Assembly: GCA_019636235.1 (NCBI GenBank)
Contig: JAHBXW010000025.1
Coordinates: 1 to 64,000 of the forward strand
Direction of reading: 5' to 3'
From: Planctomyces sp.
GTDB taxonomy: Bacteria > Planctomycetota > Planctomycetia > Planctomycetales > Planctomycetaceae
Length of the DNA: 64,000 nucleotides
Shown piece by piece: positions 970 to 64,000 of the stretch. Numbering within the stretch: the stretch's first letter is position 1; each line of letters opens with the position of its first letter. A program made the translations under genes and the position numbers. The notes beneath the pieces are model-generated. The model was not told the DNA's origin. It made no database searches and saw only the letters and a list, made by a program, of their open reading frames with translations.

Positions 970-1635
970 TCAGGTGGCGGGATGCATCGCGGCGGGGAGC
1001 TGTTCTTCAAGCAGCAGCAGCGCTTCGCTGATGCCCCGCTGGGCCGGTTCGAGCCGCTGCATCAAGTCGCTGGACCAGGCGCTTCGAGATTCGGACGCGG
1101 CCCGCGACGCGCCGGTCGGCAGAACGACTCCGACCGCGTCTGCGACGAGCGTGCCCGGCCCTTCGACCCAGGCCAGATAGCGGCGTCCGATCTCGTGCGG
1201 GGAGGGCGCAGCTGCCAGCCCAGAGCGATCCGTCACGGCAGAGCCCGCAGCATCTCCCGGGCTCGGAACGGCCGCTGTCGTCGGCTGCGTCCCAGGCCTC
1301 TCTGGCGACAACAGGCCCACGCCCGCCGCGATGATGACTCCGGCCGCCGCCGTCAGCCACAGCTTCTGGCCGGCGCCGGCGACGCCGCGGGCGACGATTG
1401 CCTTTGGCCGGGGGGGCGTCGCCGCCAAATCGGCCAGCACGCGCTCGGTGAGATCGACCGTCGGGACGGCGTTCCGCCAGTCGGGCAGCAGGGCCTCGAG
1501 CAGCGCAGCGTCGGCCAGCGCCTGTCGGCAATGGTCGTCGCCGCAGGTCGCTGCGTGTTCTGCGAATCCCGGGGGCCCCGGGAGCCGCTGTTCAATCCGC
1601 TCCGCGAGTCGTTCGCGCCACTGTATGCAGTTCAT
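970..1635 (-). CDS. Putative membrane anti-sigma factor
   Basis: Predicted partner of the ECF sigma factor just upstream, whose 3' end it overlaps by 44 nt. The N-terminus carries Cys3 and a His27-x3-Cys31-x4-Cys36 cluster that resembles the zinc-binding anti-sigma (ZAS) motif, although the usual spacing is Hx3CxxC. A hydrophobic segment at about residues 91-109 would place the N-terminal sigma-binding part inside and roughly 110 Pro/Ala-rich residues outside. The start is the ATG at 1633-1635. Position, overlap, topology and cysteines support an anti-sigma role; the sequence is otherwise not a close match to a family I can name. 221 residues. Confidence 0.65.
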   Translation of the reverse strand: MNCIQWRERLAERIEQRLPGPPGFAEHAATCGDDHCRQALADAALLEALLPDWRNAVPTVDLTERVLADLAATPPRPKAIVARGVAGAGQKLWLTAAAGVIIAAGVGLLSPERPGTQPTTAAVPSPGDAAGSAVTDRSGLAAAPSPHEIGRRYLAWVEGPGTLVADAVGVVLPTGASRAASESRSAWSSDLMQRLEPAQRGISEALLLLEEQLPAAMHPAT

Positions 1636-56642: not shown

Positions 56643-58097
56643 ATGCACGGCGGAAATCCGCTGACGACGGCCGTTTCGCGGCGCTCGCTGCTCGAGTGGG
56701 GCGGCGGGTTCGGCGGGCTGGCGCTGGCCCAGTTGCTGCTTGGGGAGCAGGCGACGGGCGTGGAACCGGCGACTCCGGCAGCGGCGGATTGGAATGGCGG
56801 GCTGCATCATCCCGCGCGCGTGCGCCGCATCATCCAACTGTTCATGAATGGCGGCGTCAGCCAGATGGACACGTTCGATCACAAGCCGGAACTGGAGCGC
56901 CGCCACGGCGAGCAGGTCGACGTCGGTTTGAAGGTCACCGCCACGGGCGTCCCAGGGCCGGTGATGAAGTCGCCGTTCGCCTGGAAACAGCACGGAGAAT
57001 GCGGCCGCTGGGTGACTGACGTGCTGCCGCACATGGCGGGCTGCGTGGACGACATGGCCTTCCTGATGGCGATGACGTCCAAAACCAACGTGCATGGCCC
57101 GGGCAGTTATCTGCAGACGACGGGCTTCCTGTTTCCCGGATTCCCCTGCTTCGGCGCGTGGGTCAGCTACGCGCTGGGCCGGCTGACCGATGACCTGCCG
57201 ACGTTCGTGGTGCTGCCCGATCCGCGCGGGCTGCCGTACAACGGCATGGGCAACTTCACGGCCGGATTCCTGCCGGCGATGCACCAGGGGACGTTGATCA
57301 ACCCCTCCGCGCCAACGCCGATTCCCGATCTGCATCCGGCGCCGACGGGGCGGTATGTGACCCCCGCGTCGACAGCGGCGGGCCTTGACCTGCTGCAGCA
57401 CATGAACCGCCGTTATGCCGCGGAACGCCCGGGCGACTCGCGGCTCGAGGCGCGGGTCGAGTCGTACGAACTCGCGGCGCGGATGCAGCTCGCCGCGCCG
57501 GAGACGTTCGATCTGTCGCGCGAATCGGAAAGCGTGCATCGCGCCTATGGGACGGACGCTCCCGCGCATGAAGGGGGCTTCGCGCGGAACTGTCTGCTCG
57601 CGCGACGGATGCTCGAACGCGGCGTGCGGTTCGTGCAGGTCTGGAGCGGTCCGGGAGGCGCGGCGAACAACTGGGACAACCATGGCGACATCCCCCGCGA
57701 GCTGCCGCCGATCGCGCGGCAGGTCGATCAGCCGATCGCCGCGCTGCTTCGGGATCTGAAGTCCCGGGGCATGTTCGAGGACACGCTGGTCATCTGGACG
57801 ACGGAATTCGGCCGCATGCCCTTCACTCAGGGTTCGACCGGCCGCGACCACAACGGCGGCACGTTCGTCACCTGGCTGGCCGGCGCGGGGATTCGCGGCG
57901 GCGCGGCCATCGGCGAAAGCGACGAATATTCCTGGCAGGCGGCGGTCGACAAAACGACCTGCTACGATCTGCACGCGACGGCGCTGCACCTGCTGGGCAT
58001 CGACCACGAACGCCTGACAGTGCGGCACAACGGCATCGACCGCCGTCTGACGGACGTGCACGGACACGTGATCCGCGGGATCCTGTCCGATCCCTGA
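56643..58097 (+). CDS. DUF1501 domain protein paired with the PSD1 gene
   Basis: 484 residues. N-terminus VSRRSLLEWGGGFGGLALAQLL is a Tat-like signal. Family marks are QLFMNGGVSQMDTFDHKPELERRHG, MTSKTNVHGPGSYLQTTGFLFPGF in parts, WSGPGGAANNWDNHGDI, VIWTTEFGRMPFTQGSTGRDHN and HDYD-like CYDLHATALHLLGIDHERLTVRHNG. The second half is close to that of the lone DUF1501 gene near 12 kb. Its start is 13 nt after the PSD1 stop, so they form a two-gene operon, the usual planctomycete layout. Enzyme activity is not established; the fold is alkaline-phosphatase/sulfatase-like by family knowledge. Confidence 0.93.
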   Translation: MHGGNPLTTAVSRRSLLEWGGGFGGLALAQLLLGEQATGVEPATPAAADWNGGLHHPARVRRIIQLFMNGGVSQMDTFDHKPELERRHGEQVDVGLKVTATGVPGPVMKSPFAWKQHGECGRWVTDVLPHMAGCVDDMAFLMAMTSKTNVHGPGSYLQTTGFLFPGFPCFGAWVSYALGRLTDDLPTFVVLPDPRGLPYNGMGNFTAGFLPAMHQGTLINPSAPTPIPDLHPAPTGRYVTPASTAAGLDLLQHMNRRYAAERPGDSRLEARVESYELAARMQLAAPETFDLSRESESVHRAYGTDAPAHEGGFARNCLLARRMLERGVRFVQVWSGPGGAANNWDNHGDIPRELPPIARQVDQPIAALLRDLKSRGMFEDTLVIWTTEFGRMPFTQGSTGRDHNGGTFVTWLAGAGIRGGAAIGESDEYSWQAAVDKTTCYDLHATALHLLGIDHERLTVRHNGIDRRLTDVHGHVIRGILSDP

Positions 58098-58186
58098 GCC
58101 GCGCCTCGCCGGCGAGTCCCGCTCATTCGACCGGACCGCCTCCGACTTCCGGAGCGGCCAACCCCAGCACCGTACGGAGTCAGCGC

Positions 58187-59533
58187 ATGCGACGCACGGT
58201 TTCCTGCCGCGGAACGCTTCTTTCCCTGGCCCTGTTGAGCGCCGGATTCGCGATGGCCGCGGAGCCCAAAACTCGCGAACAGAAGGTCCGCGAGGACAAG
58301 GCCCGCGTCGAGGCCGAGGGCTTCTGGATGTACAACGACCTGCCGGGCGCGTTCGAGGCGGCGAAGAAGACCGGCAAACCGATTCTTGTCGTCCTCCGCT
58401 GCCTGCCCTGCGAGGAGTGCGTCAAGCTCGACGACGACCTGGTCGACAACGATCCGGCGATCCGCCCATTGCTGGAGAAGTTCGTCTGCGTGCGCGTCGT
58501 GGGCACGAACGGCCTCGACCTGTCGACGTTCCAGTTCGACACGGACCAGTCCTTCGCGGTGTTCATGCTGAACGCGGACGGCGCGATCTACGGCCGCTTC
58601 GGGACGCGGTCGCATCAGACGGAATGGATCGGCGACGTCTCGCTGCCGGGCATGGCCCAGGCCCTGCAGGGAGCGCTGGAACTGCATGCCGACTATCCGA
58701 ACAACCGCGCGGCGCTGGCCGGCAAACGCGGCCCTCAGCCCGAAGCCGCCGCGCCGGAGGAGTATCCCGCGCTGAAAGGGCAATACGGCTCGACACTGGA
58801 CTACAGCGGCAACGTCGTGAAGAGCTGCATTCACTGCCATCAGATCGGGGATGCGCAGCGCGAGCTGTACCGCTCGCGCGGCGAGGCGATACCGGAAACG
58901 GTGCTGTTCCCCGCGCCGCATCCGCGCTCAGTGGGGCTGACGCTCGACCCCAAGCAGCGCGCCACGGTGCTGGACGTTGAAGCGGGATCGCCCGCGGCGT
59001 CATCGGGGTTTCGGCCGGGGGATGCGATTCGCACTCTGGACGGCCAGCCGCTGGTGTCGATCGCCGATCTGCAGTGGGTGCTGCACCGCGCGGCGCCAGA
59101 GGGCGCCGAACTGAAGGCGGTCGTGGAACGGGGCGGCCAATCGACGACGCTGACGCTGGCGCTGCCCGAAGGCTGGCGCCGCCAGGGAGACCTGGCCTGG
59201 CGGGCGAGTTCATGGACGCTGCGCCGGATGACGACCGGCGGGCTGTACCTCGAAGCGCTCTCCGACGAAGAACGCAAGTCGCGTCGAATTCCCGCGGGCA
59301 GCATGGCGCTGCTCGTGAAGCACGCTGGCGAATATGGTCCGCATGCGGCCGCGCTGAACGCGGGCGCCCGCAAGGGGGACGTCCTCGTGGCGTTCGATGG
59401 AAAGTCAAATCTGATGACCGAGTCCGACCTGCTGGCCTATGGCGTGACGGCGCGGCGGCCGGGCGATCAGGTGCCCGTGACGCTGCTCCGTGAGGGACGC
59501 CGCATCAACATCCGGATTCCGATGCAGGAGTAG
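58187..59533 (+). CDS. Exported thioredoxin-like / CxxCH / PDZ fusion protein
   Basis: 448 residues. Signal peptide (LLSLALLSAGFAMAAEP) then a thioredoxin-like domain with CLPC at 72-75 and Cys78 (VVLRCLPCEECVKLDDDLV). A linker leads to CIHCH at residues 214-218, a c-type heme motif within KSCIHCHQIGDAQRELYRS. The C-terminal half has PDZ-like blocks: DVEAGSPAASSGFRPGDAIRTLDGQPLVSIADL and NAGARKGDVLVAFDGKSNLM, each with the GxxPGD-type core. It follows the PSD1-DUF1501 operon after 89 nt. Redox, heme and peptide-binding modules in one chain suggest a periplasmic electron-transfer or quality-control protein; this is inferred. Confidence 0.85.
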   Translation: MRRTVSCRGTLLSLALLSAGFAMAAEPKTREQKVREDKARVEAEGFWMYNDLPGAFEAAKKTGKPILVVLRCLPCEECVKLDDDLVDNDPAIRPLLEKFVCVRVVGTNGLDLSTFQFDTDQSFAVFMLNADGAIYGRFGTRSHQTEWIGDVSLPGMAQALQGALELHADYPNNRAALAGKRGPQPEAAAPEEYPALKGQYGSTLDYSGNVVKSCIHCHQIGDAQRELYRSRGEAIPETVLFPAPHPRSVGLTLDPKQRATVLDVEAGSPAASSGFRPGDAIRTLDGQPLVSIADLQWVLHRAAPEGAELKAVVERGGQSTTLTLALPEGWRRQGDLAWRASSWTLRRMTTGGLYLEALSDEERKSRRIPAGSMALLVKHAGEYGPHAAALNAGARKGDVLVAFDGKSNLMTESDLLAYGVTARRPGDQVPVTLLREGRRINIRIPMQE

Positions 59534-59602
59534 CGGGGACGGCGCCGCGGGGCTGACGGGTTCCCGACGCCGCGACATCCGCGCTGGCTGCGAATCTCAC
59601 CA

Positions 59603-60523
59603 ATGGCCGACGACTCGGAATGGGACTGGATCGATGCGCTCCGGAAACGGACGGCGGCGCATCCGTCCGCGCCGATCGGCATCGGCGATGACGCGGCCCT
59701 GCTGCGTTGCGCCGGACGGGAGACGCTGGTCGCGACCGACATGCTGATGGATGGCGTCGACTTCGTTGTCGGCGAGACCCCACCGGAGCTGATTGGACGC
59801 AAGTGCCTGGCGGTGAATCTCAGCGACATCGCGGCCATGGCGGGGCGGCCACGGGCGATGTTCATCAGCCTGGCGCTGCCGCGGCGCGGCGGGCGCGCGC
59901 TGGTCGAAGGGCTGTACGCCGGCCTCGAACCGCTGGCCCGGGAGTTCGATGTCGCGCTGGCCGGGGGGGACACGAACGCCTGGGACGGTCCGCTGGTCGT
60001 GAACGTGACGGTGGTCGGCGAACCGGTCGCGCCCGGTCCTGTCGCGCGGAGCGGAGCCCGGCCGGGAGATGTCGTGTTCGTCACGGGACCGCTGGGCGGC
60101 AGCCTGCCATCGCTGCGGCACTGCACCTTCACGCCGCGCGTCCGCGAGGCGCTGGCGCTGCTCGCCGCCGCGCCGCTGCACGCGATGATCGACCTCAGCG
60201 ACGGACTGGCGACGGACCTGTCGCACATCGCGCGGGAAAGCGGCTGCGGCATCGTCATCGAGGCAGAGCGCGTTCCGGTGCATGCGGACGTCCCGTCGGG
60301 CGATCATTCCGACCGATTGCGCCGCGCGCTGACAGACGGCGAGGATTTCGAACTCGCCTTCTGCGTCTCCGCAAACGACGCGGCGCGCCTCGAGTCCGAC
60401 CCGCCCGCTGGCGTGGCGCTGCACCGGATCGGCGAAGTCGTCGCCGGTTCCGGCCTGATGCTGCGGCAGGGCGCGGACCAGCGGCCGATCGATCGCACGG
60501 GCTGGCAGCACCGCTTCGCGTGA
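59603..60523 (+). CDS. thiL: Thiamine-monophosphate kinase
   Basis: Phosphorylates thiamine monophosphate to thiamine diphosphate with ATP, the last step of the pathway. Family marks are IGDDAALLRC, TDMLMDGVDFVVGETPPELIGRKCLAVNLSDIAAMAG in parts, VALAGGDTNAWDGPLVVNVTVVGE, VVFVTGPLGGSL, AMIDLSDGLATDLSHIA and DGEDFELAFCVS. 306 residues, normal. ATG at 59603. No other thi gene and no TPP riboswitch-like sequence are visible near it. It lies 69 nt after the thioredoxin-PDZ gene. Confidence 0.95.
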   Translation: MADDSEWDWIDALRKRTAAHPSAPIGIGDDAALLRCAGRETLVATDMLMDGVDFVVGETPPELIGRKCLAVNLSDIAAMAGRPRAMFISLALPRRGGRALVEGLYAGLEPLAREFDVALAGGDTNAWDGPLVVNVTVVGEPVAPGPVARSGARPGDVVFVTGPLGGSLPSLRHCTFTPRVREALALLAAAPLHAMIDLSDGLATDLSHIARESGCGIVIEAERVPVHADVPSGDHSDRLRRALTDGEDFELAFCVSANDAARLESDPPAGVALHRIGEVVAGSGLMLRQGADQRPIDRTGWQHRFA

Positions 60524-60663
60524 CGGCGCGGGCGGACATTCCGGTTCCCATTCCGCCCGGCGCTTGCCAAGGGTTCGACCGCGCCGTCAACTGGCGCAGC
60601 GGCGATGGTCGAGGTCCGTCCGTCCGCCGCCCGAACGCGAGCCCTTGAACCAAGCAGGAACCC

Positions 60664-61650
60664 ATGTCGAGTTATTCGCGAGAACTGGAAGCGGCGCTGG
60701 AAGCGGTCCGTGAAGCAAGTCTGGTTTGCCGGCGCGTGCAGCGCGAGCTGGCCGGGGCCGCGCTTCAGAAAGAAGACAAGAGCCCCGTCACGGTCGCCGA
60801 TTTCGCCAGCCAGGCGATCGTCTGCCGCGTGCTGGCCGAACGCTGCTCCGGCGACCCGATCATTGGCGAAGAGACGGCCAGCGATCTGTTGAGCGAGGAG
60901 CGCCGTCCGTTCCTGGATCAGGTCGTGTCGCAGCTGCAGGAGGTCGCACCGGGGGCGACGCGGGAGGCCGTTTGCGGCTGGATCGACGCTGGCCTGGGGG
61001 AGTCGGCCGGCCGGTTCTGGACGCTCGACCCGATCGACGGAACCAAGGGTTTTCTCAGGGGAGAGCAGTATGCCGTGTCGCTGGCGCTGATCGTCGACGG
61101 ACAAATTCAGGTCAGCGTGCTGGGCTGTCCGAATCTGTCTGTCGAAGCGGGCGGGAGCGCGGCGGGCGCGGTGTTTTCGGCCGTGCGGGGCGAGGGGGCC
61201 TGGGTGCGCGCGTTGGACGACATGTCGGCGCCGGCGCGGGGCGTGAAGGTCAGCGACGTGTCCGAGGCCAGCGCGATCCGGATCTGCGAGAGCGTGGAGT
61301 CGGGGCACAGCGCGCATGGCCGCTCGGCGACGATCGCCTCACTGCTGGGGACGACGGCGCCGGCGGTGCGTCTGGACAGTCAGGCGAAGTACGCGGTCGT
61401 GGCGCGCGGCGAAGCGGACGTGTACCTGCGGCTGCCGACGCGTCCGGGCTATCGCGAGAAGATCTGGGATCACGCGGGGGGCGTGCTGGTCGTCGAGGAA
61501 GCGGGCGGGCGCGTGACGGACATTGAAGGCCGCGCGCTGGAGTTCATTCATGGCCGCGAGCTGACGGCGAATCGCGGCGTGGTGGTGACAAATGGACGTC
61601 TGCACGCGGCGGTGCTGGACGCGGTCGCGCGGACAGCGGAGTCGACGTGA
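60664..61650 (+). CDS. cysQ: 3'(2'),5'-bisphosphate nucleotidase (CysQ/HAL2 type)
   Basis: Magnesium-dependent phosphatase of the inositol-monophosphatase fold that turns PAP into AMP, releasing product inhibition in sulfate assimilation. Visible are KSPVTVADFASQAIVCR, GEETASD (Glu of metal site), WTLDPIDGTKGFLRGEQYAVSLALI in parts with Asp122-x2-Asp125, and WDHAGGVLVVEEAGG with Asp269. 328 residues, a HAL2-like length. The ATG at 60664 follows AGGA. sat, which begins the pathway that ends with PAP, is in the same window but not adjacent. Substrate PAP is inferred from family. Confidence 0.9.
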   Translation: MSSYSRELEAALEAVREASLVCRRVQRELAGAALQKEDKSPVTVADFASQAIVCRVLAERCSGDPIIGEETASDLLSEERRPFLDQVVSQLQEVAPGATREAVCGWIDAGLGESAGRFWTLDPIDGTKGFLRGEQYAVSLALIVDGQIQVSVLGCPNLSVEAGGSAAGAVFSAVRGEGAWVRALDDMSAPARGVKVSDVSEASAIRICESVESGHSAHGRSATIASLLGTTAPAVRLDSQAKYAVVARGEADVYLRLPTRPGYREKIWDHAGGVLVVEEAGGRVTDIEGRALEFIHGRELTANRGVVVTNGRLHAAVLDAVARTAEST

Positions 61651-62042
61651 GCGCGTTAGCGCGCGTGTCGTCAGTCGTCATGAACGATGATGAACGCGCG
61701 CGAGATCGCGCATCGAGCGCGGCGCGGCGCGCGAAGCGCCGTGAAACTCGCGCGCCGTTTCGCGCCGAAATGTTCAAAGGTTGTTCAAAAAAGACTTGCA
61801 CGCCAAAGACGATTTCGTAGGATGACGCCGTTCAATGTGTCCGCGACTGCAGATCAGAGGGTGACAGCACAACGAGAGACATGACTCTTTCCGCGTGCGA
61901 CGTCACAGACCTGCAGACACGAACACGCGGCTTGCCACGGTTGGTGAGCCGAACGCAATTCGAGTTGTGGTGGCTTGACCGATCTCTTGCCCGGTAGCAA
62001 CGGCAGGCACACCACACGGGGCATTGATTAGGAGGAGTTCAC
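61651..62042. other. Intergenic region and leader before the Lys/Ala peptide gene
   Basis: About 390 bases. The left part (61651-61775) is packed with GCGC and CGCG words. The middle (61780-61823) is A/T-richer and carries the promoter. The right part (about 61830-62042) is the probable 5' leader of the 23-residue peptide gene; it is less GC-rich and has GTGACAGCACAACGAG and TTGATTAGGAGGAG. I see no convincing structured RNA family or coding frame. Confidence 0.5.
61796..61823 (+). promoter_or_regulatory. Sigma-70-type promoter for the Lys/Ala peptide gene
   Basis: TTGCAC (61796-61801) and TAGGAT (61818-61823) are 16 nt apart, within an A/T-rich patch (TTGTTCAAAAAAG) that contrasts with the GC-rich surroundings. 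The expected transcript starts near 61830, about 210 nt before the GTG at 62043. Confidence 0.6.
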
Positions 62043-62114
62043 GTGGCTAAGAAGAAGGCAGCCAAGAGTGCAGCGAAGAAGCCCGCCAAGAAGGCTGCGA
62101 AGAAGAAGAAGTAA
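62043..62114 (+). CDS. 23-residue Lys/Ala-rich basic peptide (histone H1-tail-like)
   Basis: The peptide reads MAKKKAAKSAAKKPAKK followed by AAKKKK: twelve Lys, eight Ala, one Ser, one Pro and no acidic or aromatic residue. The start is a GTG at 62043 with a very strong ribosome-binding site (AGGAGGAG, 5 nt spacing), the stop is TAA at 62112, and a perfect terminator follows. Codons are AAG throughout for Lys. Its composition and AAKK-type repeats resemble the C-terminal tails of histone H1 and bacterial HU/Hc1-like proteins. A DNA- or RNA-coating role is inferred from composition only. It is a lone unit between cysQ and nadC. Confidence 0.72.
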   Translation: MAKKKAAKSAAKKPAKKAAKKKK

Positions 62115-62140
62115 TCTTCGAACTTCGCTTCGCACACTCC

Positions 62141-62169
62141 GAAAGCGGTCGACTCAATCGACCGCTTTC
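62141..62169 (+). terminator. Intrinsic terminator of the Lys/Ala peptide gene
   Basis: Perfect 12-bp stem (62141-62152 with 62158-62169, GAAAGCGGTCGA) with a CTCAA loop, then CTTCATTT. It starts 27 nt after the peptide stop codon and isolates the unit from nadC. Confidence 0.88.
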
Positions 62170-62252
62170 CTTCATTTCCGGGCCTGAAAAACACGGGTTT
62201 TTCCAAGGAAAACGGGTACATTCGAGCTGGTCCCCGCTCCGGAACTCCCGCC

Positions 62253-63149
62253 ATGACGCCTGACTTCTCCGACGCCGAACGCCGCTGCGCGGCCACGCTC
62301 ATCGACGCCGCGCTCGACGAGGATCTCGCTGGCCGGGACGATCTCACCACCAGCGCCGTCATCCCCGGCGAAGCCCGCGCCGAGGTCAACATCGTCGTCC
62401 GTCAGCCGGGCGTCGTGGCCGGACTCCCCATCGTGCCGCTGCTGTTCGCACGGCTCGATCGCGCGGTCGAAGTTGAACTGCGATCCGTCGATGGCGAGGC
62501 GCGCCGCGCGGGCGACGTCGTCGCCGCGCTGCGCGGCGGCACGCGATCGCTGCTCATCGGCGAACGCACGGCGCTGAACTTTCTGACGCGCCTCAGCGGC
62601 ATCGCGACGCTGACTCGCGCTTTCGTCGAGCGCATCGCCGGAACGCAGGCCCGCATTCTTGACACGCGCAAGACGCTGCCCGGCTGGCGGGCTCTCGAAA
62701 AGTACGCCGTCCGCTGCGGCGGCGGAGTCAACCATCGCTTCGGCCTCTACGACGGCGTCCTGATCAAGGACAACCACCTCGCCGCCTGGAGCGCGCAGCG
62801 CGAGCGTCCCTCGCTGGACGATGCCGTGCGCCGAGCGCGCGCCGCCGCGCCCCGCGGCGTGCCGATTGAAGTCGAAGTCGACACGCTCGATCAGCTCCGC
62901 GCCGTGCTGCCCGCCGGACCCGACATGGTCCTGCTCGACAACATGTCTCCCGCGCTGCTCGCCGCAGCCGTCGCGATCCGCAATGACGTCGCCCCGGCCG
63001 TGAAGCTCGAAGCGTCCGGCGGCGTGACGCTCGACACGGTTCGCGCGATCGCGGAATCCGGCGTCGACCGGATCAGCGTCGGCGCCCTCACGCATTCGGC
63101 CCCGGCCCTCGACCTCGCGCTCGACTGGGCGTCCGCGCTTCGCGAATGA
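62253..63149 (+). CDS. nadC: Nicotinate-nucleotide pyrophosphorylase (carboxylating)
   Basis: Makes nicotinate mononucleotide from quinolinate and PRPP in NAD synthesis. Marks are DEDLAGRDDLTTSAVIPGEARAE in parts, GERTALNFLTRLSGIATLTRAFVE, ILDTRKTLPGWRALEKYAVRCGGGVNHR (in parts: DTRKTLPGWR, GGGVNHR), DGVLIKDNHL, IEVEVDTLDQL, LDNMSP, LEASGGVTLDTVRAIAESGVDRISVGALTHS. 298 residues, normal. ATG at 62253. nadA or nadB is not adjacent. It is a single gene before an HD-domain gene. Confidence 0.96.
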   Translation: MTPDFSDAERRCAATLIDAALDEDLAGRDDLTTSAVIPGEARAEVNIVVRQPGVVAGLPIVPLLFARLDRAVEVELRSVDGEARRAGDVVAALRGGTRSLLIGERTALNFLTRLSGIATLTRAFVERIAGTQARILDTRKTLPGWRALEKYAVRCGGGVNHRFGLYDGVLIKDNHLAAWSAQRERPSLDDAVRRARAAAPRGVPIEVEVDTLDQLRAVLPAGPDMVLLDNMSPALLAAAVAIRNDVAPAVKLEASGGVTLDTVRAIAESGVDRISVGALTHSAPALDLALDWASALRE

Positions 63150-63179
63150 AGCCCGCCGGGCTCGACCGCGGAACGGGGA

Positions 63180-63208
63180 CTGACCGGCCGACGCACGCTC
63201 GATAGAAT
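63180..63208 (+). promoter_or_regulatory. Possible promoter of the HD-domain gene
   Basis: CTGACC (63180-63185) and TAGAAT (63203-63208) are 17 nt apart. The start near 63215 leaves a short leader before the ATG at 63239. Confidence 0.5.
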
Positions 63209-63238
63209 CGGCTGTCCTCCAGCCCAGCCCGGCCCCGC

Positions 63239-64000
63239 ATGCCACGCGACTTCTCCACGGAAAGCCTGTCCCACGACCCGATCCACGGGTATATCCCCTT
63301 CGTGTCTCGAAGCGGACTTCCCCCCGGCGAGGTGTCCGAACAGGAAATCATCGACCACCCCTGGGTCCAGCGGATGCGGCACATCCATCAGCTGCAGACC
63401 GCCTGGTGGGTGTTCCCCTCCGCCGAACACATGCGGTTTCAGCACGTGATGGGGGTCATGCACCTCGCGTCGCGAGTCATCGACGCCTGGTACGATTCGC
63501 TGTGCGACGCCTGCCCCAACGTCCCCTCCCGGCCCTGCGTCGAGAGCCTCGCGAGGCTGGCGGGACTGCTGCACGACGTCGGCCATGGTCCGTTCGGGCA
63601 TTTCTTCGACGACCACTACCTCGACCAGTTCGGCGTCACCCATGAGGACGTCGGGGCCGCGATCATCGAGCACGAGCTGGGCGACCTGCTGCGGCGGATC
63701 CGCCGCAACCCGAACGGTCGGCTCCAGCCGCTGGAGGAGATCGATCCGCGGCAGGTCTCATTTCTGATCCGCCGCCCGCGTTCCACGGAATCGGCCGAGG
63801 GGCATCCGCTGTGGCTGCAGAAGCTGCGGTCGCTGTTCAGCGGCATCTACACCGTCGACAACATGGACTTCGTGCTGCGCGACGCGTACATGACGGGCAT
63901 CAACACCCGGGCCGTCGATGTCGCGCGGCTGATCCACTACAGCCTGTTCACCCCCAGCGGGCTGACGATCCACGCCCGCGGCCTGCCGACGCTGATCCAC
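63239..64000 (+). CDS. HD-domain phosphohydrolase, 5' part (runs off the window)
   Basis: Open from ATG 63239 to the window end, 254 codons seen. An N-terminal HDPIHGYIPF segment is typical of SAMHD1/dGTPase-like proteins, followed by RMRHIHQLQTAWWVFPSAEHMRFQHVMGVMHLA. The HD pair is His112-Asp113 in GLLHDVGHGPFGHFFDDHYL, and HEDVGAAIIEHEL plus FSGIYTVDNMDFVLRDAYMTG follow, as in HD-domain dNTP triphosphohydrolases. The stop codon is beyond the window. Substrate (dNTP or other nucleotide) is inferred from family likeness. Confidence 0.88.
   Translation, partial: MPRDFSTESLSHDPIHGYIPFVSRSGLPPGEVSEQEIIDHPWVQRMRHIHQLQTAWWVFPSAEHMRFQHVMGVMHLASRVIDAWYDSLCDACPNVPSRPCVESLARLAGLLHDVGHGPFGHFFDDHYLDQFGVTHEDVGAAIIEHELGDLLRRIRRNPNGRLQPLEEIDPRQVSFLIRRPRSTESAEGHPLWLQKLRSLFSGIYTVDNMDFVLRDAYMTGINTRAVDVARLIHYSLFTPSGLTIHARGLPTLIH

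Follow-up and report, generated by a model that had tools for sequence, protein, structure and literature searches.

Whether an open frame of 23 residues that encodes little besides Lys and Ala can be a gene in its own right, and what such a gene would do, is the question raised by one short interval of the window, the 64,000-nt stretch of Planctomyces sp. DNA analysed here. The frame opens with GTG and translates as MAKKKAAKSAAKKPAKKAAKKKK; nearly pure Lys/Ala genes of this kind are often too short for gene callers. A preliminary description had reported the frame together with a Shine-Dalgarno sequence, a TTGCAC-16-TAGGAT promoter and a 12-bp stem, all of which are present where it had placed them (Table 1). 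It had passed over the 213-nt interval that separates promoter and start codon and that contains a conserved structured RNA.

Table 1. Positions of the Lys/Ala gene and its expression signals in the window.
Feature	Position	Strand	Basis and details
Promoter TTGCAC-N16-TAGGAT	61796..61823	+	Direct sequence reading; TTGCAC 61796-61801, TAGGAT 61818-61823
Leader RNA, ~213 nt	61830..62042	+	5' end deduced from the -10 element
Leader hairpin 1: 9-bp stem, hexaloop ACGGUU (commonly ANGGUU)	61928..61951	+	Helices 1 and 2 of alignment A8
Leader hairpin 2, whose loop GCCCGGU (61989-61995) is strongly conserved	61967..62015	+	Helices 3 and 4 of alignment A8
Shine-Dalgarno sequence AGGAGGAG	62030..62037	+	Direct sequence reading; 5 nt 5' of GTG
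Lys/Ala gene, 23 aa, GTG start	62043..62114	+	Direct reading; frame common to leader-bearing family genomes
Intrinsic-terminator-like hairpin, perfect 12-bp stem, weak T-tract	62141..62169	+	Direct sequence reading

The terminator-like stem lies 3' of the stop codon and is formed by the arms GAAAGCGGTCGA (62141-62152) and TCGACCGCTTTC (62158-62169), which enclose the loop CTCAA and are followed by a weak T-tract, CTTCATTT. Folding of the window leader together with gene and terminator gave a z-score of -4.0 against 100 shuffles, a value to which the coding part and the terminator contribute. In a genome of the same genus (G001) the peptide MAKKKAAAKKAPAKKKAAGKKK is found at the same place, and a DNA search of 59 genomes revealed 69% identity to this genome over ~400 bp, leader included. 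Several distant DNA matches fall in short Lys/Ala frames, and the DNA upstream of some distant Lys/Ala matches displays a common hairpin and a CCCGGU motif.

Searches with the peptide by itself are defeated by its low complexity, and the leader serves as the sequence handle by which the gene can be found. A covariance model termed R1, built from five leader sequences containing no coding DNA, matched 71 of the 170 genomes of the family, at a single site in each. Seventy of these loci were fetched and a Lys/Ala frame was located by script at 69; at the seventieth, L069, the contig ends after GTG GCA AAG AAA AAG GCT GCG, read by eye as MAKKKAA, and at L073 the contig end cuts the frame after MAKKSAKKKAAKK. 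The second model, R2, was built from the 70 loci found with R1 and identified a leader site in 117 of the 170 genomes, covering 45 of 58 genera (E up to 0.05), with a match absent in 53. The 32 new places found with R2 included 31 with a Lys/Ala frame, that of L122 being cut by a contig end, and one without (L138), while the last 16 genomes all possessed the frame. A Lys/Ala frame therefore starts within 90 nt of the main leader site in 117 of 117 genomes (70 + 31 + 16), three of these frames being truncated by contig ends (L069, L073 and L122), compared with 0 of 2309 random anchors placed in the same loci. Under a stricter frame criterion the counts were 100 of 104 loci, which comprise the first two rounds plus L141 and L022 (misses L069, L073, L138 and L141), and 0 of 2309 anchors; many loci come from close relatives, and locus counts are thus not independent events. 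L022 represents a genome (G014) among the 53 leader-negative ones, in which the gene is present and the leader has diverged (E 0.017).

Three model matches, L138, L248 and L141, are without a Lys/Ala frame. L138 (G167) and L248 (G075) are second, weaker matches in genomes that already carry a normal site, and L141 (G155) is an R1 match with an E value of 0.074. The L138 copy (G167:C79; R2 match at 1474-1555, minus strand) resembles hairpin 1 and is located behind a TTGACA/TATGAT-like promoter, with an unrelated small frame, MKSELKVELRV..., further downstream; this copy is possibly a paralogous leader or an sRNA.

Application of R2 to 397 class genomes and 294 phylum genomes, samples that contain family genomes and were filtered strictly (E up to 0.01), returned 81 and 15 genomes with matches, respectively. 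All of them belong to the family of the window, and at this threshold neither sample yielded the leader outside the family. A pattern scan of named genome contigs yielded 79 stretches, 20 of which are supported by R2 at E below 1e-4, while for 58 R2 found nothing at E up to 0.1. On the strength of their leader matches and titles, 19 of the 20 supported stretches come from members of the Planctomycetota (labelled Planctomycetaceae, Schlesneria, Planctomyces, Planctomycetota or, as the name of a MAG, Rhodopirellula sp.); the twentieth, L213, is titled plain "bacterium". The R2 match in Tritonibacter (L190; E 0.056) is likely to be due to chance.

The expression signals of the window locus recur in its relatives. 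Of 104 loci, 82 carry the pattern TTGNNN-N16-TANNAT at a distance of 50-122 nt on the 5' side of hairpin 1, in comparison with 2 of 104 shuffled sequences and, for two control regions, 0 of 87 and 0 of 99. The spacer of the matching loci is always 16 nt, spacers of 15 and 17 nt having been permitted in the search and found in none. Ninety-eight relatives could be parsed completely, the remaining 6 of the 104 loci being L069, L073, L097, L122, L138 and L141. All 98 present an SD-like sequence, as defined by a permissive pattern, within 20 nt of the start codon. Conservation of the peptide and its ribosome-binding site in close relatives, which the preliminary description had named as one check on its proposal, is thus observed. 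Downstream of the ORF, a stem of at least 9 bp is present in 96 of the 98, versus 34 of 98 after shuffling, in a search that allowed G-U pairs and one mismatch and did not demand a T-tract. In 77 of 98 relatives a CUCU/AGGAG-type pairing can form before the SD, against an expectation of 7.5 from shuffling the bases that precede it, for a pattern that was picked after inspection of the sequences and counted over related genomes. In 66 full-leader folds the unpaired probability of the SD is 0.33, versus 0.41 with a shuffled upstream leader, and 45 of the 66 leaders lie below their own control, a modest effect; the SD of the window is predicted to be mostly open (0.87 unpaired).

The leader extends over ~171-248 nt with a median of 216 nt, as counted from the inferred start in the 79 loci with a recognisable promoter. 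It comprises two conserved hairpins. In hairpin 1, 96.1% and 97.8% of the cells in helices 1 and 2 of alignment A8 are paired and 9 of 9 pairs have changed on both sides, while in hairpin 2 the corresponding values are 85.8% and 80.1% for helices 3 and 4, with 10 of 10 pairs changed on both sides. Across 65 distinct leaders, 90.3% of the cells of all pairs are paired versus 69.7% when shuffled, 281 cells present double changes versus 81.6 when shuffled, and all 19 pairs display changes on both sides. None of 500 shuffles matched the covariation of the leader, A8 being an alignment fitted to the covariance model and therefore favouring the structure of that model. The covariation score of 0.64 fell to 0.07-0.11 when the partner columns were slid by 1-3 positions. 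De novo prediction on A8 with RNAalifold returned hairpin 1 and, of hairpin 2, the lower but not the upper stem; with the six-sequence MAFFT alignment A4, hairpin 1 was recovered and hairpin 2 was not. Conservation across leaders is high in the loops ANGGUU and GCCCGGU. Compensatory changes within a fold that is conserved in front of a single kind of gene are what is expected of a structured cis-regulatory RNA, and the leader displays them. By sequence comparison, the family has kept gene, promoter, leader structure and terminator stem together as a single unit.

An Rfam scan of window positions 58000-64000 and the loci of 15 relatives (E up to 1) gave five matches, none of them on the leader. 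A CsrC fragment match in L030 was rejected as leader RNA by its position after the stop codon, as were L20_leader matches in L033 (1312-1411) and L053 (1219-1371, minus strand), which span the last part of the ORF and the stretch beyond it. The latter are below threshold (38.2 and 28.5 bits versus 58.7) and are probably chance likenesses of an A-rich stretch plus a hairpin. Full-leader folds of two subsets of 14 and 7 sequences, computed without controls, suggested additional 5' helices. The 5' half of the leader contains blocks common to some genera, for example in L041-L061 (GCTGCCGC; GATGTAAGTCCTT), which suggests a second domain that varies by lineage.

The 98 complete relatives encode proteins of 19-125 aa, placing the 23-residue form of the window at the short end. 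Their composition is dominated by Lys (0.498) and Ala (0.350), followed by Pro (0.053), Val (4%) and Thr (4%); Asp and Glu are present in 0 of the 98, and an aromatic or histidine residue in one. The proteins start with GTG in 70 cases and ATG in 28, and their N-termini read MAKKK (78), MAKKA (18) or MVKKK (2), a uniformity that is partly circular as the parser demanded Met-Ala/Val-Lys, the rule that excluded L097 (MATKKKK). All are Lys/Ala/Pro-rich, free of acidic residues and variable in repeat length, in the manner of histone H1 tails, which describes a likeness and not membership of a family. Four proteins were scanned against profiles of known families. Pfam PF07382 (HC2) gave one match, with 11.1 bits versus a cut-off of 40, for a 74-aa relative and none for the window peptide, while NCBIfam NF038053 gave 22.6 and 11.2 bits for two relatives versus a cut-off of 80, and no match for the window peptide and the fourth protein. 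Coding selection was assessed on the 12 same-length pairs that are at least 85% identical. In seven of them the peptides are identical, and the 9, 6, 5, 5, 2, 2 and 1 nucleotide differences are necessarily synonymous; the five others present synonymous/nonsynonymous changes of 11/8, 4/6, 2/1, 2/2 and 0/1, where ~22-25% synonymous changes would be the neutral expectation and the choice of pairs itself favours synonymous change. These counts point weakly to coding selection on the Lys/Ala peptide.

The genes that flank the unit differ among loci, which indicates that the unit is independent of its neighbours. In the window these are an inositol-monophosphatase-family (cysQ-like) gene and nadC, and the preliminary description had looked to this pair as a guide to the gene in other Planctomycetota. 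That synteny does not extend to the relatives, where 48 of 70 loci have an upstream gene from a single cluster (its L031 member being a xylose-isomerase-like TIM barrel) and 17 of 70 a downstream gene from a single convergent cluster (its L031 member being RNase III). A comparison of the window NadC with viral contigs returned one relative, 44% identical, and was uninformative.

Chlamydia and Planctomycetes are related at the level of the superphylum. The chlamydial protein Hc2 (HctB; PF07382) is lysine-rich and variable in size, as is the Lys/Ala family; it is reported to span 165-237 aa, with lysine-rich repeats whose gain and loss alters its length, in contrast with 19-125 aa here, and a structured leader goes unmentioned for it in the abstract of that report (PMC2848022). 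A second chlamydial histone-like polycation, HctA, is described as lethal in E. coli, and its gene hctA as repressed by the sRNA IhtA (PMC3469542). There a polycation is restrained through RNA at the level of translation, as is proposed for the window unit, IhtA being a trans-acting sRNA while the window unit carries a conserved cis leader. AlgP of Pseudomonas aeruginosa presents H1-tail-like Lys/Ala/Pro repeats, and is reported to locate to polyphosphate granules and to space them (PMC9239181). In AlgP the repeats form a C-terminal domain of 154 residues, whereas in the window gene the tail is the whole protein. The Burkholderia-type histone H1-like family NF038053 is alike in composition, and the longest relative tested matches it with an E value of 1e-4, its 22.6 bits lying below the cut-off of 80. 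Ribosomal-protein genes have structured 5' leaders, and the cis-regulatory leaders of Rfam resemble the present one in preceding a basic-protein gene, the window leader itself having no Rfam match. Planctomycetes are noted for condensed nucleoids, and Gemmata belongs to a different family from that of the window. In Gemmata no histone homologue and only two HU-like sequences are reported (PMC3440768). Histone-fold proteins, likewise chromatin proteins of this phylum, have been reported in Planctomycetota (PMC11390915, PMC10627809), while a Lys/Ala chain of 23 residues would be devoid of a histone fold. The family-wide Lys/Ala gene is a further candidate chromatin component. The excerpt of a 2010 motif survey names one motif with Planctomycetes, Rhodopirellula-1. 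Searches of an open-access library on planctomycete lysine-rich, histone-like and structured-RNA topics brought up no account of the gene or the leader. To judge from these comparisons, the combination of a minimal histone-tail-like gene family with a structured leader RNA of its own is new, and the leader is its most novel part.

The relatives support the earlier proposal of a free-standing Lys/Ala polycation gene with conserved expression signals, and we consider it probable that the unit is a monocistronic gene for a histone-H1-tail-like polycation, with its own promoter and terminator, whose translation is set by a cis-regulatory leader. Transcription would proceed from a promoter of the sigma-70 type, its spacer fixed at 16 nt, and be ended by the terminator of the unit. 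The peptide, lacking acidic residues and any evident fold, would neutralise and condense nucleic acid, namely nucleoid DNA and possibly RNA or polyphosphate, as is suggested by its composition and by the precedents of AlgP, HctA and Hc2; selection would then act on composition and charge and not on the exact sequence. Because of its position and conservation, the ~216-nt leader, a new structured RNA and candidate regulator, is presumed to be a cis-regulator that sets the translated amount of a potentially toxic polycation through hairpins 1 and 2 and, for the majority of relatives, a short base-paired stretch that covers the Shine-Dalgarno sequence. The leading candidates for its partner are the peptide itself, by feedback, and a trans-acting sRNA. 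Counting against this account are the modest SD effect and the open SD of the window, the 53 family genomes with no leader match, the three matches lacking a Lys/Ala frame, the weak sign of coding selection and the failure of RNAalifold to recover hairpin 2 on A4. A bolder version, which we put forward tentatively and consider doubtful, holds that the leader is a new family-specific class of cis-acting RNA that senses the level of free polycation and homeostatically sets the charge balance of chromatin, the peptide binding hairpins 1 and 2 and perhaps stabilising a GGUU-AGCC contact between their loops. This complementarity is our own reading, the window having UGCC at the place concerned, and the loops vary too little for covariation to bear on the contact. 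If true, the unit would be an autoregulated minimal histone tail whose RNA is its best conserved "sequence".

A chance ORF in a GC-rich intergenic region draws on the existence of other Lys/Ala-coding stretches in the genomes of relatives, and is contradicted by the conservation of promoter, SD and terminator stem and by the random-anchor count (0 of 2309 versus 117 of 117 main leader sites); its probability is practically nil. On the basis of sequence comparison, the frame is a real conserved gene, and the preliminary judgement that so complete a unit exceeds chance is borne out by promoter, terminator stem and Lys/Ala frame, which all surpass their shuffled, control-region or random-anchor counts. 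Very improbable, too, is a leader peptide or attenuator that regulates a downstream gene through ribosome stalling on Lys codons, as the short Lys-rich frame, the hairpin after it and nadC downstream might suggest for the window. Genes downstream vary (nadC in the window, members of the convergent rnc-type cluster at 17 of 70 loci, different genes at others), the proteins reach 125 residues and the conserved leader sits upstream of the frame; an attenuator or leader peptide of nadC in particular was rejected, since the neighbours are not conserved.

More weight attaches to a reading in which the RNA is the main product, either a structured small RNA of ~200 nt or a dual-function RNA, and the peptide a secondary product or helper. 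The conserved leader structure beside a peptide length that varies more than six-fold, the high conservation of the loops ANGGUU and GCCCGGU, and the hairpin-1-like copy of G167 behind a promoter-like site without a Lys/Ala frame speak for it. The frame accompanies the main site in 117 of 117 genomes, all 98 parsed frames have an SD-like sequence in front of them and the terminator-like stem is positioned 3' of the ORF, which all argue against it, and we regard it as unlikely. Somewhat less unlikely is a factor of polyphosphate granules or RNA condensates in place of a DNA-compacting one, as pure Lys/Ala chains lack a DNA-specific fold and the H1-tail-like AlgP is reported at polyphosphate granules (PMC9239181).

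Lys/Ala starts were also searched for in 22 non-family genomes, where three matches were found. Two loci of another family of the same class, f4 (L006 in G044 and L009 in G048), contain a 24-aa gene, MAAKKKAAKKAVKKATKKAAKKKK, with a different upstream region. These two genomes represent two genera and share 92% identity over ~103 nt around the 24-aa gene, which may have a leader of its own. Small proteins with a common head (I.R.G...YSDG...FGK) and a Lys/Ala tail are encoded at L014 (1387-1551) and L020 (1357-1551), in two other families of the class.
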